Source: Methylobacterium sp. J-088 (GTDB lineage: Bacteria > Pseudomonadota > Alphaproteobacteria > Rhizobiales > Beijerinckiaceae). From it: a stretch of DNA of 64,000 nucleotides. The notes below the pieces were generated by a model. It searched no databases, had not been told where the DNA came from, and saw only the letters and a list, made by a program, of their open reading frames with translations. The first letter of the stretch is position 1; each line of letters starts with the position of its first letter. The stretch spans positions 1 to 64,000 of the forward strand of contig NZ_JAKSYH010000136.1 in assembly GCF_022829295.1 (NCBI RefSeq). The letters are read 5' to 3'. The translations under genes were made by a program, and so were the position numbers. Shown in pieces: positions 42,642 to 53,355 of the stretch.

Positions 42642-42935
42642 TCAGGCGGCGCGCGACCAGCGGATGTCGCCGAGGCTCTCGCGGAAGGCGAAGCGGGCCA
42701 GGTGATCGGCCACGACGTTCTCCAGCCGGGTGAGGTTGACCGGGTCCGCGCTGTCGATGCGCATCACCAGCGCGTCGGGCTCGGCATCGAAGGTGCAGAC
42801 GCGATCCTCGCCGAACGGCACGGTGCCGTGCTCCGGGGTCGCCTCGACCTTGAACTTGTGGCTCCAGTGCCGGCAGAGCTGCTGAAGGTAGCGGCTCGCT
42901 TCCGCGGTCTGCACGCGGGCCAGTGAGGTAGGCAT
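42642..42935 (-). CDS. DUF2218 domain protein
   Basis: A 97-residue cytosolic protein. EASRYLQQLCRHWSHKFKVE and GTVPFGEDRVCTFDAEPDAL are the DUF2218 signature; the fold resembles siderophore-interacting or iron-related domains, and the function is unknown. The start at 42935 (MPTSLARVQT) has GGAG nine bases upstream; an upstream extension of about 39 codons is unlikely. A CtrA-like motif lies 155 bases upstream. It converges on putA. Confidence 0.8.
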   Translation of the reverse strand: MPTSLARVQTAEASRYLQQLCRHWSHKFKVEATPEHGTVPFGEDRVCTFDAEPDALVMRIDSADPVNLTRLENVVADHLARFAFRESLGDIRWSRAA

Positions 42936-43088
42936 TCCGTCGATCTCCAAAAGGACGTGATCCAGCCTGTCGTTGACGGTTCGTCGCTCGATCTCGCACG
43001 TGCGAGATAGGAAGGCTCCAGAGCAATTGCCATGCCGGGCTACTACCGACACGCCTGCGCCGTCATCTGAGAAGGTCTGGCCATCGTG

Positions 43089-46423: not shown

Positions 46424-48088
46424 TCAGGCCCGCCGCAACAGGCTCGGCGAGCGGAAATCCGAGCCGCGGCTCTGGGAGGTACGCAGCACCGACATCCGCT
46501 GTTCCCCCTGCCGGATCTGCTCGATCAGCTGAGGCTTGGCGTAATAATAGCCCTGCGCACAGCGGATCTGCGTGGCGCCCAGCAAGTAGGCGACCTCCTC
46601 GAAGGTCTCGACCCCTTCGGCGACCACCGACATGCCGAGGGCCATCCCGAGCGATTCGATCGCCTTAAGGACGATCTGGCTGCGGGGCCGCTTGTCGATA
46701 TCGGTGATGAAGGACCGGTCGATCTTCAGTTCATCCGCTGTGATTTCCGCCAGCGCCGCCAGCGAGGAATAGCCGACTCCGAAATCGTCGATCGACACCC
46801 GGGCCCCTATGGCGCGGATGCGCGGCAGAACCTCGCGCTGAAAGCTGCCCTTGGTGAAGAAGGCCTCCTCGGTCAGTTCCAGCACGAAGCGCCGGGCCAT
46901 GCCCGTCGCCCCGAGCGCGTCGCAGAAAGCCGACATGAACGGCACGTCGCAGGCCTGCTTGGCGGCGATGTTGAGGCTCACGGTGACATCCGGCCCGAAC
47001 ACCTCGTCGATGTCGGGCATGGTCTGCACGGTCTCGGTCAGCACCTGCAGGGTGATCTCGTTGATGAGACCGAGTTCGATCGCCAACTCGATGAAATCGC
47101 CGGGAGCCTGGATCATCCCGAGCTCGTCCCGCCAGCGCAGCAGGACCTCGACGCCCATCACGGCGTGCGTCCGCATGTCGACCTTCGGCTGGAAGGCGCA
47201 GCAGAAGCACCGGTCGCGGATCGCGAGACGCAGGCGCTGCTCCACGGCCATGCGGGCCGTGGCGGCGTGGCTCATCGTCTCCTCGAAGACGCTGACGCCG
47301 CCCTTCACGCCACCCTTGACCCGATACATCGCATTGTCGGCCTGCCGCCGCAGGATCTCGTAGGTCGTGCCGTGTTCCGGAAACAGGCTCAGGCCCATCG
47401 ACGCCGAGGCAAAGATCTCGTGGTCGTCGATGAAGAACGGCTGCTTCAGGCGGTCCGAGATGTCGAGCACCGAAGCCAGGGTGGCGTCCCGATCGGCCAC
47501 CGGGCTGAGCAGCAGCACGAATTCGTCGCCGCCGATCCGGGCGAGCATGTCGCTCGGGCGCAGCGTGCCGCGGATACGGTCAGCCACTTTGCGCAGCAGG
47601 GCGTCGCCCGCGGCGTGGCTGTAATAGTCATTGATGTGCTTGAAATTGTCGAGATCGATGAAGGCCAGGGCGAAGCGGTCGTCCGGGCCGGCTTCGATGA
47701 TGAGTTCCTCGATGCTCTGCTCGAACATCGTCCGGTTGGGCAGTCCGGTCAGCGCGTCGATGAAGGCCCGCGCGATGAGATCGCGCTGCATGCCGTGATG
47801 GTGCGTGACATCCGTGAGGGTGGTGAGCGTGTAGGTGTCCGCCTCGGTGGCGACCGCCTGTGCCTGCGCCTCGACCACGAGATCGCCGATCTCCGCGATG
47901 ATCGCGGCGTCGGGGCTGTCGAAGGCGTTGGCCGAGAGGTCGTCGATCGCCCGCGATCCCAGAGCACGGGCGGCGTCGTTGGCCAGGATGCAGAGCCCTC
48001 GCTCGTCGTGGACCACGACGCCGACCGGAAGCGCCTGAATGGCGGCTTCCAGCAGGCTCTGGCGATGTCGGGGCGCGGACGTGCTCAC
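46424..48088 (-). CDS. GGDEF-EAL c-di-GMP protein
   Basis: A 554-residue protein with a PAS-like N-terminus (ILANDAARALGS), a GGDEF domain and an EAL domain. GGDEF is intact at residues 186-190, and the inhibitory I-site RPSD is five residues upstream. The EAL domain has EVLLRW in place of EAL, with DDFGVGYSSL, KIDRSF and VVAEGVE conserved. It may therefore both make and break c-di-GMP. The GTG at 48088 has AGGG upstream and lies one base after the stop of the HerA-like gene; a longer frame of 44 codons is unlikely to be used. Confidence 0.9.
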   Translation of the reverse strand: MSTSAPRHRQSLLEAAIQALPVGVVVHDERGLCILANDAARALGSRAIDDLSANAFDSPDAAIIAEIGDLVVEAQAQAVATEADTYTLTTLTDVTHHHGMQRDLIARAFIDALTGLPNRTMFEQSIEELIIEAGPDDRFALAFIDLDNFKHINDYYSHAAGDALLRKVADRIRGTLRPSDMLARIGGDEFVLLLSPVADRDATLASVLDISDRLKQPFFIDDHEIFASASMGLSLFPEHGTTYEILRRQADNAMYRVKGGVKGGVSVFEETMSHAATARMAVEQRLRLAIRDRCFCCAFQPKVDMRTHAVMGVEVLLRWRDELGMIQAPGDFIELAIELGLINEITLQVLTETVQTMPDIDEVFGPDVTVSLNIAAKQACDVPFMSAFCDALGATGMARRFVLELTEEAFFTKGSFQREVLPRIRAIGARVSIDDFGVGYSSLAALAEITADELKIDRSFITDIDKRPRSQIVLKAIESLGMALGMSVVAEGVETFEEVAYLLGATQIRCAQGYYYAKPQLIEQIRQGEQRMSVLRTSQSRGSDFRSPSLLRRA

Positions 48089-48089
48089 G

Positions 48090-49916
48090 TCAGCCCTGCT
48101 GCCAGAGCGTCTTGGGCGCACGCAGGCCCGACTCGGCCGCGGCGTCGGCCCCCTCAAGGGGGCGACGGAGCAGGCGACGGTGCACTTGGTCGAGTGCCGC
48201 GCCGTTGCTGCCCTCGGCACTCGGTTCCCGGGCCAGGCGGGGGCTCGCGGACTGGTCCGCCGAATCGAGCCCGCTGGCCTTGCTCATGGTGGCCCCCCGC
48301 CAGCGCTCGACCACCGCGCCCACGAAGGCCGCGCCGGCGATCGCGTCGCCGTGGTCGGAGGCGCGCCCGCTCATGTCGTTGCGCGGCTGGCGCTCCGGGG
48401 GCAGGGCGGCGAACTTCATCCGCACCGGCATCGGCACACCCTCGCCGAAGGCGATCACCTCGCCGGTCCCGAGCGACGGCACGAAGGTGAGCAGGTTCAC
48501 CGCGTCGGAGACCGCCGCGGCCAGGAAAGCCTGGTCGCGATCGTTGGTCATCCGCATGGCGAAGAGCGTGCTGCACTGGGACATGATCGTCGGATCGAGT
48601 TCCGCAGGCCGTTGGGTGACGAGGCCCAGATAGACGCCGTGCTTGCGGCCCTCGCGGGCGATCCGCGAGAGAGCCCGGCGGGTCGGGGTGAAGCCGACCG
48701 AACGGTCGGCGGACGCGTAGCGGTGAGCCTCCTCGCACACGAACAGCAGCGGGATCGCACCTTCGCTCCAGATGCCGAATTCGAAGGCCAAGCGGCACAG
48801 GACGCAGACGACGGCATCGACCACCTCCATGGGAAGCCCGGCGAGCTGCATGATCGTCATCGGGCGCCCGTCCGGATCGAGCCGGAACAGGTGGGCCAGG
48901 ATCTCGCCCATCATGTCGCCGCCGACATTGGCGTTCTCGAACATGAAGCCGTAGCGCGGATCGTTGCGGATCGCCTCGATGCGCGTGATCAGGCGGTGGT
49001 AGTGCATACGCCCGACGCGGTTCTCCAGGCGCCCCATCCGCTCGTCGATCAGGGCGATCAGATCCTGAAGCATGTAGGGGACCGGCGTATCGACGGTGTA
49101 GCCGGAGCTCTTGCCGATGGTACGCTTGACGATCTGCCTGTCGCTGGCCTCCTTGTACTGCGCGTACTTGCTTTTCGCCAGCGGGATGACTTCCGCCAGG
49201 ATCTCGATTTCCTCATCGATCGGTGAGCGGCCGCCGTAGATGACGTCGGCGATTTCTTCGAGATTGAACAGCCAGAAGGGCAACTTGAGATTGCGCGGGC
49301 TGATGACGCTCGCATGCTCTTCGAAGCAGGCCGCGTATTCGTTGTGAACGTCCAGCAGGAAGATGCGCACTGCCTGCTGGGACCGCATCACCTGGTCGAG
49401 GATCACGGCAACGCCGCTCGACTTGCCGACGCCGGTGGTGCCGAGCACCGCGAAGTGTTTCGTGAGCAGATCCTCGACCTTGATGCAGGCCGGCGTGTCC
49501 GGATCCTGGTACAGCGCCCCCACGGTGGCCATGTTCGCCGATGAGACCTGATAGAGGATCCGCAGATCGCCCGCAGGCAGCAGATCGACCGCATCCCCGA
49601 TGGCGGGGTAGCAGGTCACGCCCCGGCGAAACCGCTTGGTCCCATTATCCGACAGGATCTCCCCGAGGAGATCGATGCTCGCATAGGCGCCCCGTTGCCC
49701 GGACCGATCACCACCCGACGAGAGCGTCGTGATGATCCCGATCAGGAGCGCGGCGCCGGCCTCGATCCGTACGAAATTGCCGACGGTCGCCCGCACGTGC
49801 GGTCGGCCGTTCTGCCCGGCGAGTTCGAGATGAACCTTCGAACCCTCGATCGACGTAACCGAACCCATCTGCGCCGCCGGAACCTCGTCCCGGTCCATGC
49901 CGTCACCGTTCACCAT
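48090..49916 (-). CDS. HerA-like ATPase (DUF87 family)
   Basis: A 608-residue P-loop ATPase. An N-terminal barrel-like domain (HAS-barrel type, about 1-140) precedes Walker A GTTGVGKS at residues 159-166; LLDVHNEY follows, and the Walker B block is LLFVCEEAHRY. An arginine-finger stretch SRIAREGRKHG and the sensor-like TQRPAELD follow. HerA proteins form hexameric DNA translocases, often with NurA in archaea or with defence nucleases in bacteria. No nuclease gene is adjacent. The last 100 residues are disordered. The next gene follows after one base. Confidence 0.85.
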   Translation of the reverse strand: MVNGDGMDRDEVPAAQMGSVTSIEGSKVHLELAGQNGRPHVRATVGNFVRIEAGAALLIGIITTLSSGGDRSGQRGAYASIDLLGEILSDNGTKRFRRGVTCYPAIGDAVDLLPAGDLRILYQVSSANMATVGALYQDPDTPACIKVEDLLTKHFAVLGTTGVGKSSGVAVILDQVMRSQQAVRIFLLDVHNEYAACFEEHASVISPRNLKLPFWLFNLEEIADVIYGGRSPIDEEIEILAEVIPLAKSKYAQYKEASDRQIVKRTIGKSSGYTVDTPVPYMLQDLIALIDERMGRLENRVGRMHYHRLITRIEAIRNDPRYGFMFENANVGGDMMGEILAHLFRLDPDGRPMTIMQLAGLPMEVVDAVVCVLCRLAFEFGIWSEGAIPLLFVCEEAHRYASADRSVGFTPTRRALSRIAREGRKHGVYLGLVTQRPAELDPTIMSQCSTLFAMRMTNDRDQAFLAAAVSDAVNLLTFVPSLGTGEVIAFGEGVPMPVRMKFAALPPERQPRNDMSGRASDHGDAIAGAAFVGAVVERWRGATMSKASGLDSADQSASPRLAREPSAEGSNGAALDQVHRRLLRRPLEGADAAAESGLRAPKTLWQQG

Positions 49917-52685: not shown

Positions 52686-52946
52686 ATGCCGAATGCCGTG
52701 ATCGAGACCAACCTTGATCCCGTCACGCGGGAAGAGGCTGCTGCCCTTCTGGCCGGCCCGGGTCTCACGGTGTCCGATGCCGTACGGCTGCTGATGACGC
52801 GGGTCGCTCGCGAGAAGGCGCTGCCGTTCGAGCCACTCGCGCCGAACGAAACGACAATCGCCGCGATGCGTGAAGCGCGACGGGCGGGGCTACCGCGTTT
52901 CGACGCCGTGGCCTCGCTGAAGGCCGCCCTCGATGCGGACGATTGA
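52686..52946 (+). CDS. RelB/DinJ-family antitoxin
   Basis: An 86-residue protein. LTVSDAVRLLMTRVAREKALPF is the ribbon-helix-helix DNA-binding segment of DinJ/RelB antitoxins; the C-terminal RFDAVASLKAALDADD should wrap the toxin. It overlaps the toxin gene by 14 bases, so the two are coupled. The antitoxin would neutralise the toxin and repress the operon. Confidence 0.85.
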   Translation: MPNAVIETNLDPVTREEAAALLAGPGLTVSDAVRLLMTRVAREKALPFEPLAPNETTIAAMREARRAGLPRFDAVASLKAALDADD

Positions 52947-53355
52947 GCACGCCGGCCAGTTCAAGCGCGATGTCAAACGAGAGCCGAAGGGGCGCCACCG
53001 CGCAACGCTCACGGCCGATCTTGCGGCCGTCTTGGAACGCGTGGCGTCCGATCTGCCCCTCGAAGCACGGTACCGGGACCGTACCCTGATCGGAGATTGG
53101 CATGACCATCGGGACTGCCACACCAAGCCGGATCTCGTTCTGATCTACCGACTTCCCGATCCCGCGACGATCCACCTGGTCCGCCTCGGATCGCACGCCG
53201 AAGACCGGACCAGTCGCGACGCGTTCGTGCTCGCATGGACGATGCGTGCCTCGTTCCGGATGCAGCACCCGGAACGAGGCCGTTGTCGATACCAACACGT
53301 CGACGTCAGAACGCCTCCGCCTCCAGAGCCATGGTGCTCTCTGCGCCGGCCTTGA
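52933..53355 (+). CDS. YafQ-family toxin with abnormal C-terminal extension
   Basis: A 140-residue frame. Residues 1-90 match YafQ, a ribosome-dependent mRNA interferase: LPLEARYRDRTLIGDWHDHR, DCHTKPDLVLIYR and RLGSH contain its histidines and acidic residues. Normal YafQ stops a few residues after GSH with a Leu-Phe pair. Here the frame runs on for about 50 arginine-rich residues that cross the hairpin at 53249-53279 and overlap the end of the opposite gene. The loss of the terminal Phe, important in E. coli YafQ, suggests impaired activity. Confidence 0.75.
   Translation: MRTIEHAGQFKRDVKREPKGRHRATLTADLAAVLERVASDLPLEARYRDRTLIGDWHDHRDCHTKPDLVLIYRLPDPATIHLVRLGSHAEDRTSRDAFVLAWTMRASFRMQHPERGRCRYQHVDVRTPPPPEPWCSLRRP
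53249..53279 (-). terminator. Hairpin near the end of the acyl-CoA dehydrogenase gene
   Basis: CCTCGTTCCGG and CCGGAACGAGG form a perfect 11-bp stem with a 9-base loop, about 27 bases beyond the stop of the leftward acyl-CoA dehydrogenase gene. It lies within the run-on part of the toxin frame. No T run follows. Confidence 0.5.

Follow-up and report, generated by a model that had tools for sequence, protein, structure and literature searches.

A HerA-family ATPase gene conserved beside the gene for a predicted c-di-GMP phosphodiesterase in Hyphomicrobiales

The DNA examined here is a stretch of 64,000 nucleotides from Methylobacterium sp. J-088 (contig NZ_JAKSYH010000136.1, positions 1 to 64,000), referred to throughout as the window. 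Its minus strand carries a gene for a HerA-family ATPase and, one base further on, a gene for a PAS-GGDEF-EAL protein, hereafter the partner. Known HerA proteins act as motors that serve nucleases and defence effectors. An initial annotation of this locus had described a HerA-type ATPase and a cyclic di-GMP (c-di-GMP) protein one base apart, with the second gene starting at a GTG after the HerA stop, and the sequence agrees. The features of both genes are collected in Table 1; loci and genomes used for comparison are cited by our own L and G numbers.

Table 1. Positions of the HerA and partner genes, of their domains and motifs, and of the FIST-linked sister genes
Feature	Coordinates	Strand	Basis or remark
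HerA-family ATPase, 608 residues, ATG start	48090..49916	-	Open reading frame; Pfam DUF87; Foldseek top match SIR2/HerA 8wld, E 3e-39
Single intergenic base between HerA stop and GTG start of second gene (TGA-C-GTG)	48089..48089	.	Sequence
PAS-GGDEF-EAL protein, 554 residues, GTG start, predicted c-di-GMP phosphodiesterase	46424..48088	-	Open reading frame, Pfam, model, Foldseek
N-terminal beta-barrel (HAS) domain, HerA residues 16-112	49581..49871	-	AlphaFold2 model; HAS by comparison with HerA structures and PMC11291478
Walker A GTTGVGKSS, HerA residues 159-167	49416..49442	-	Conserved in paired and solitary HerA
Walker B LLFVCEEAH, HerA residues 390-398	48723..48749	-	
Low-confidence HerA C-terminal tail, residues 546-608, with short predicted helix 573-583	48093..48281	-	AlphaFold2 model
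PAS domain and linker helix, partner residues about 5-109	47762..48076	-	Weak Pfam PAS; PAS-like secondary structure in model; Foldseek PA0861
GGDEF domain, partner residues 108-258	47315..47767	-	Pfam
I-site RPSD, partner residues 177-180, intact in window, lost in some relatives	47549..47560	-	
GGDEF motif, partner residues 186-190, intact in window protein	47519..47533	-	
EAL domain, partner residues 284-519	46532..47239	-	Pfam; catalytic residues conserved in family
EAL motif as EVLLRW, partner residues 314-319, catalytic Glu kept	47132..47149	-	
FIST (NosP-type) gene then sister GGDEF-EAL gene	L110:2994-6179, L112:1268-4472, L113:2952-6129		Pfam

The upstream protein matches the DUF87/HerA central domain in Pfam (E = 2e-40). 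An AlphaFold2 model from an alignment of 32 HerA sequences (mean predicted local distance difference test, pLDDT, of 76.6) has an N-terminal beta-barrel with strands at residues 16-24, 27-32, 48-53, 56-69, 75-90, 93-98, and 109-112, a RecA-like core, and a tail predicted with low confidence. Its closest solved structures, found with Foldseek, are SIR2/HerA and DUF4297-HerA complexes, which it matches over most of the protein. The DUF87 core, the Walker A and B motifs, and the modeled HAS barrel place the predicted protein in the HerA/FtsK family. Bacterial defence HerA profiles outscore archaeal-type ones against this sequence, the best PADLOC model being PDLC04105 at 314 bits, and its scores lie well under the cut-offs of the curated NCBIfam anti-phage HerA models (193 vs. 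850 bits for NF042944 and 128 vs. 800 for NF042943). The tail has pLDDT values under 50 and a single short helix, which may correspond in the model to the hexamer "hook" described in the available portion of PMC11291478. By eye, several HerA tails end in a short RFxLLKKP-like motif, as at window residues 573-583, which is possibly this hook.

In the partner, Pfam recognizes EAL (8e-57) and GGDEF (2e-40) domains and a weak PAS match under its cut-off. The AlphaFold2 model, built from 25 sequences, has a mean pLDDT of 83.7 and a predicted TM-score (pTM) of 0.49, and because of the latter value the arrangement of the domains is unsure. The top Foldseek matches are PA0861 and PA0575, which we take to be RbdA and RmcA. 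Both are PAS-GGDEF-EAL proteins with the same domain order, and neither is known to be paired with HerA.

The two genes keep close company in related genomes. Among 149 family genomes, the partner subfamily (at least 407 bits) occurs in 11, and in 11 of 11 it lies beside HerA, although in one carrier (G118) the HerA gene is truncated where the contig ends. The limits of the subfamily are sharp, since the next-best GGDEF-EAL matches in these genomes, among the matches listed, reach 279 bits or less and the best paralogue within the window's own genome scores 266. When HerA loci from genome contigs are taken as the starting point, the partner is adjacent in 37 of 51 and absent beside HerA in 14. 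Throughout the Methylobacterium-type cluster of 18 loci (L032-L048 and L069; L045 is from a Beijerinckiaceae metagenome-assembled genome, or MAG) it is adjacent. This cluster includes the closest HerA locus, that of Methylobacterium sp. E-065 (L032; 99% identity across the whole HerA). The partner is missing beside the more distant HerA of L077, also a Methylobacterium locus. Two Nitratireductor plasmid records hold the pair under the annotations "ATP-binding protein" and "bifunctional diguanylate cyclase/phosphodiesterase."

The partner gene is found in three arrangements relative to HerA: downstream on the same strand, convergent, and upstream on the same strand. The 50 adjacent loci fall into 21 flanking-gene context groups at the threshold used, a few of which may be over-split because flank lengths differ and some are short. 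Among the 23 loci inspected, no third conserved gene reappears from one context to another. These comparisons, made at the level of sequence, show that the pairing exceeds chance and that the two genes can be regarded as a conserved two-gene module, present in many genera of Hyphomicrobiales and not limited to a few strains.

Beyond adjacent loci, the partner (E <= 1e-90) was found in 25 of 397 genomes of the order: adjacent to HerA in six, unlinked to it in 15 genomes of one family, and in three (G452, G274, and G502) as the FIST-linked sister form described below. In the last one, G510, a partner lies at a contig end and no HerA is found at E <= 1e-90. Of 367 class-wide genomes, the window genome included, only the window genome and one genome of family f36 (at a guess, Bradyrhizobium and kin) carry the partner, which therefore appears to be confined to this order. 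Within Methylobacterium (111 genomes), HerA scores at least 880 bits in 25, a 619-bit HerA is present in two, and 84 have none at E <= 1e-60. Fifteen genomes, most of them MAGs, have a HerA lacking an adjacent partner; 14 are without a partner elsewhere (267 bits or less), and in the remaining one matching coordinates place the partner next to a second HerA, L050. Some genomes (G118, G138, and G205) carry a second, solitary-type HerA in addition to the paired one. As separate observations in f36, a different GGDEF-EAL gene stands divergently beside HerA in L092 (5280-7184), L094, L140, and L142, with the usual partner far off; these genes score 235-260 bits to the partner, and that of L092 is PAS-GGDEF-EAL by Pfam. 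Where the partner gene is unlinked, an HWE histidine kinase gene lies just upstream of it in two of two loci (L089:1730-2692 and L093:4938-5897).

A bit-score cut-off for separating paired from solitary HerA was rejected, because paired proteins (G143, 631; G071, 617) and solitary ones (G400, 632; G492, 617) overlap, and trees were used instead. These were quick searches with support from the SH-aLRT (Shimodaira-Hasegawa-like approximate likelihood ratio test) alone and with long branches flagged. The HerA tree (107 rows) left out 14 duplicate or partial loci, L122, the exact duplicate L125, and HerA matches scoring no more than 380 bits (L087, for example); the partner tree left out 13 duplicates and L065, which is cut by a contig end. 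The last of these (JASHOM010000205.1) is labelled Eremiobacterota and its HerA pair groups with Hyphomicrobiales, probably through a binning error or transfer.

In the HerA tree, the 37 downstream pairs, the window among them, form one clade (support 99, starred). A second clade of 31 rows (96, starred) comprises eight upstream pairs, six convergent pairs, 15 proteins whose partner is unlinked, and two that are partner-less (L103 and L055). Both paired clades exclude the remaining 39 partner-less rows. Where the paired clades meet a partner-less clade of ten and L124, the tree does not resolve the branching order, so that either one or two origins of pairing can be envisaged. The partner tree places 71 rows in a single family (100, starred), whose stem is very long (2.5 changes per column). 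It recovers the downstream group (with L106 inside it), the upstream group, and the unlinked group, and leaves the convergent members unresolved; L096, a second partner copy in G358, falls among the latter. For 65 pairs, the HerA and partner trees have 42 of 62 splits in common and a distance correlation of r = 0.84. With 34 representatives the correlation is 0.64, a value that none of 2000 permutations reached; among the 15 unlinked pairs it is 0.92.

Residue conservation in the partner was surveyed in 72 sequences, namely the window, 50 adjacent loci, 15 unlinked genes, L106, L122, L096, and three FIST-linked sisters. Eleven EAL positions, taken as catalytic from EAL structures, were compared. 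All 11 are present in the window protein, 10 are invariant in 72 of 72 sequences, and the last, D435, is kept in 71. The GGDEF domain is less uniform: its glutamate is kept in 66 of 72, the motif reads GGDEF in 32 and SGDEF in 31, and the remaining nine have ANGMF, GADEF, APDGF, GGDQF, GSDAF, GGNEF, or GGDRF. The window protein has the GG(D/E)EF motif and the metal residues of a diguanylate cyclase, features that have degenerated in several relatives. The I-site arginine (R177) is retained in 61 sequences. Because the EAL site is kept throughout, whereas I-site and GGDEF motif have each been lost more than once, the constant output of the family is predicted to be c-di-GMP hydrolysis, and this is probably what the partner does. 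Many members, the window protein included, may retain c-di-GMP synthesis.

These data bear on the initial annotation, which had described an intact I-site and intact motifs; in the window protein the RPSD I-site, the GGDEF motif, and the catalytic EAL glutamate are indeed intact. Its pairing of HerA with a c-di-GMP enzyme is borne out by co-inheritance, whereas its emphasis on a dual enzyme with an intact I-site does not extend to the family. We discarded the I-site as a key feature, given that R177 is lost in 11 of 72 sequences and that four of these belong to the Methylobacterium-type cluster itself (L038, L039, L045, and L046, with GPSD, CPSD, or GSTD). As a separate point on partner architecture, the convergent-pair partners L049:5284-7578, L050:7824-10166, and L076:3522-5840 are longer at the N-terminus by about 190-210 residues that match nothing in Pfam, behind which Pfam finds PAS-GGDEF-EAL in L049 and L050 and GGDEF-EAL alone in L076.

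The nearest relatives of the partner family offer a possible clue to its input. Three sister proteins (L110, L112, and L113) are GGDEF-EAL proteins, two of them with a GAF match under cut-off. In each case, the gene lies directly behind a gene of 408 codons, with a gap of 6-13 nucleotides by the chosen starts, whose product is FIST_N/FIST_C by Pfam. According to the available portions of PMC8846402 and PMC8738867, FIST proteins of the NosP type are regarded as sensors of nitric oxide or haem in c-di-GMP signaling, and diguanylate cyclases are inhibited by H-NOX partners that have bound nitric oxide. The genomes G452, G274, and G502 have the FIST-linked sister form and no paired-clade HerA. Since the sisters stand behind a FIST gene, the input of this enzyme lineage may come from the neighboring gene, and by analogy HerA may take the place of the FIST gene as neighboring input in the paired clades. 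The resemblance to H-NOX or NosP systems, in which a separate protein gene likewise adjoins a gene for a c-di-GMP enzyme, stops at the nature of the neighbor, which here is a DNA-motor ATPase and not a haem or nitric oxide sensor.

We tentatively propose, as the likeliest of the readings considered though at somewhat short of an even chance, that HerA is the input partner of a c-di-GMP phosphodiesterase module. The second protein would be a phosphodiesterase with an EAL domain under the control of its PAS and GGDEF domains, as suggested by residue conservation and by the best structural relatives, PA0861 and PA0575. A HerA hexamer, its state set by ATP and bound DNA, would carry the PAS-GGDEF-EAL protein, which would probably dock on the ring of N-terminal barrels as in DUF4297-HerA. 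The available portion of PMC11291478 reports that the DUF4297 effector contacts the HAS barrel of its HerA and that assembly activates both enzymes. The modeled HerA has this barrel, and the co-inheritance, the agreement of the trees, and the variety of contexts also speak for the proposal. Taken with the FIST-linked sisters, this assembly suggests to us that HerA may be both scaffold and switch, dependent on ATP and DNA, and would turn c-di-GMP hydrolysis on or off. The cell could in this way couple the DNA-engaged state of a motor to its c-di-GMP level, much as sensors encoded alongside such enzymes, for example H-NOX or NosP, do for nitric oxide. That the hexameric translocase reports a particular DNA state (engagement, damage, entry, or replication status) through the assembled phosphodiesterase, which would be a new kind of c-di-GMP input, seems to us conceivable, if rather unlikely.

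Several results weigh against the proposal that HerA is the input partner. Fifteen f36 genomes, 14 of genus g78 and one of g148, hold both genes unlinked, on different contigs or far apart on one contig, and the f36 genome G497 has a paired-clade HerA without a partner (its best GGDEF-EAL match scores 263 bits). The agreement of the HerA and partner trees derives in part from shared species descent, and the sister placement of the FIST-linked proteins has modest support (80). A filter for HerA residues present in at least 85% of the paired clade and at most 30% elsewhere returned five weak positions, none of them an obvious interface. HerA residues thus hardly separate paired from solitary proteins, and the basic function of HerA may not need the partner. 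Finally, we infer the contact between the two proteins, the c-di-GMP turnover, the direction of control, and the signal.

Control could also run the other way, in keeping with the initial annotation, which had suggested second-messenger control of DNA translocation. The partner would then make or remove c-di-GMP locally, and c-di-GMP or the c-di-GMP-bound partner would control the HerA ATPase and translocation. The same co-inheritance speaks for this arrangement, and since the window protein and most relatives (63 of 72) have GGDEF or SGDEF, synthesis may also occur. However, the repeated losses of I-site and GGDEF motif with the EAL site kept are easier to reconcile with a regulated phosphodiesterase than with local c-di-GMP production, and the sister family sits behind a sensor-type gene. 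The filter described above, the sole basis of this comparison, shows no paired-clade-specific pattern in HerA for a c-di-GMP or other new ligand site. We hold control of HerA by c-di-GMP to be unlikely.

In another reading, the two genes would be inherited and expressed together and yet act separately, perhaps both serving one lifestyle trait, with no molecular contact between their products. The 15 genomes with both genes unlinked would fit such an arrangement, as would the many genomes that have a HerA of the same family without the partner. In contrast, the pair stays together in 21 context groups and three orientations, and no other recurrent gene is seen. Of 13 genomes with a HerA outside the paired clades, many of which are MAGs of unstated completeness, 12 are without the partner and one has it beside a second, paired HerA. 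The genome G452, which has an outside HerA and the FIST-linked sister form, is an exception from another sample. On balance, separate action strikes us as quite unlikely.

The likeness to SIR2-HerA and DUF4297-HerA extends to a two-gene module, a HerA with an N-terminal barrel and a RecA-like core, and the closest folds. The pair described here differs in having a PAS-GGDEF-EAL protein in place of an NADase or nuclease and in lacking a visible defence neighborhood. No SIR2 NADase gene lies beside the window HerA on either flank, and an own-genome search for DUF4297/Cap4 gave no match, nor did its control in any genome; the adjacent gene is PAS-GGDEF-EAL. HerA-NurA likewise joins a HerA ATPase to a co-encoded enzyme, and NurA has no match in the window's own genome (the control search matched in 7 of 14). 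The solitary HerA proteins of Hyphomicrobiales, such as that on Sinorhizobium pSymB, belong to the same family (43% identical for Sinorhizobium and up to 56% for nearer ones), but they occupy other branches of the HerA tree and have no GGDEF-EAL neighbor in the loci examined.

The neighborhoods of the pair were scanned with PADLOC and Pfam, using 130 proteins from 29 pair loci (at most five per locus and at most 700 residues each; a thirtieth locus, L051, had no genes called). Results refer to the best 25 of 60 PADLOC families and the best 25 of 196 Pfam families, and rarer matches may lie beyond these. The PADLOC matches listed comprise ABC-type ATPases, a single helicase of the RecQ type, and one match each to RTasHel and GajB, and no defence-island signal is visible. 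Ten of the 130 neighbors were scanned singly; the strong DpdF and PsyrT matches proved to be one RecQ-type helicase in L119, and the source proteins of the RTasHel and GajB matches were not among these ten. The Pfam matches listed represent varied metabolic, transport, and signaling genes.

A defence role is compatible with a missing neighborhood signal, and the HerA itself is most like defence HerAs. Nevertheless, an anti-phage role for the pair, with HerA as shared scaffold and the c-di-GMP enzyme as effector or sensor in the manner of SIR2-HerA or DUF4297-HerA, is very unlikely in our view: the nearness of this HerA to defence HerAs in sequence and fold (PDLC04105; 8wld) and its patchiness in Methylobacterium (HerA of at least 880 bits in 25 of 111 genomes) are set against the few PADLOC families near the pair among the matches listed, the lack of any PADLOC model matching the partner at E <= 0.01, and the presence of both genes in every g78 and g148 genome (14 and one, respectively) that is listed with at least one of them, so that the defence module suggested by the initial annotation finds no visible support in the gene neighborhoods listed.

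The component families are ordinary and their combination is novel. The initial annotation had considered the module undescribed, and at the level of titles and the opening parts of abstracts, with most subscription journals outside the scope, no account of a HerA/c-di-GMP-enzyme pairing was found. The available portions of PMC7159879, PMC12657218, PMC10910872, PMC8846402, PMC8738867, and PMC11291478 make no mention of HerA with a GGDEF-EAL protein. If the proposal is true, a HerA tied through several relocations to one predicted phosphodiesterase family would represent a direct molecular link between a DNA motor and a second messenger. C-di-GMP is the messenger that sets bacterial lifestyle, and the pairing would link DNA-motor activity to cell signaling. 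The pairing is testable with two purified proteins and with simple deletions in Methylobacterium, and HerA clades with and without the partner, together with genomes in which the genes are unlinked yet co-inherited, provide a natural comparison.

On its other flank, the window HerA gene is bordered by an open reading frame of 119 codons without a Pfam match and then by a gene for a Cys/Met metabolism enzyme. A scan for promoter consensus sequences returned a single weak site upstream of HerA, the number expected by chance. A tRNA-Gly gene adjoins the window pair, but a tRNA island was rejected as a general setting because the feature is confined to three (L034, L035, and L048) among the 18 loci of Methylobacterium type that were scanned. 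A gene pair for a RelB antitoxin and a YafQ-type toxin (Pfam) occupies window positions 52686-53355 on the plus strand. The window also has a DUF2218 gene within a few kilobases of the HerA pair (42642-42950, minus strand), and a gene of this family is also directly beside the FIST-linked sister gene in L110 (2673-2963), which may be a coincidence.

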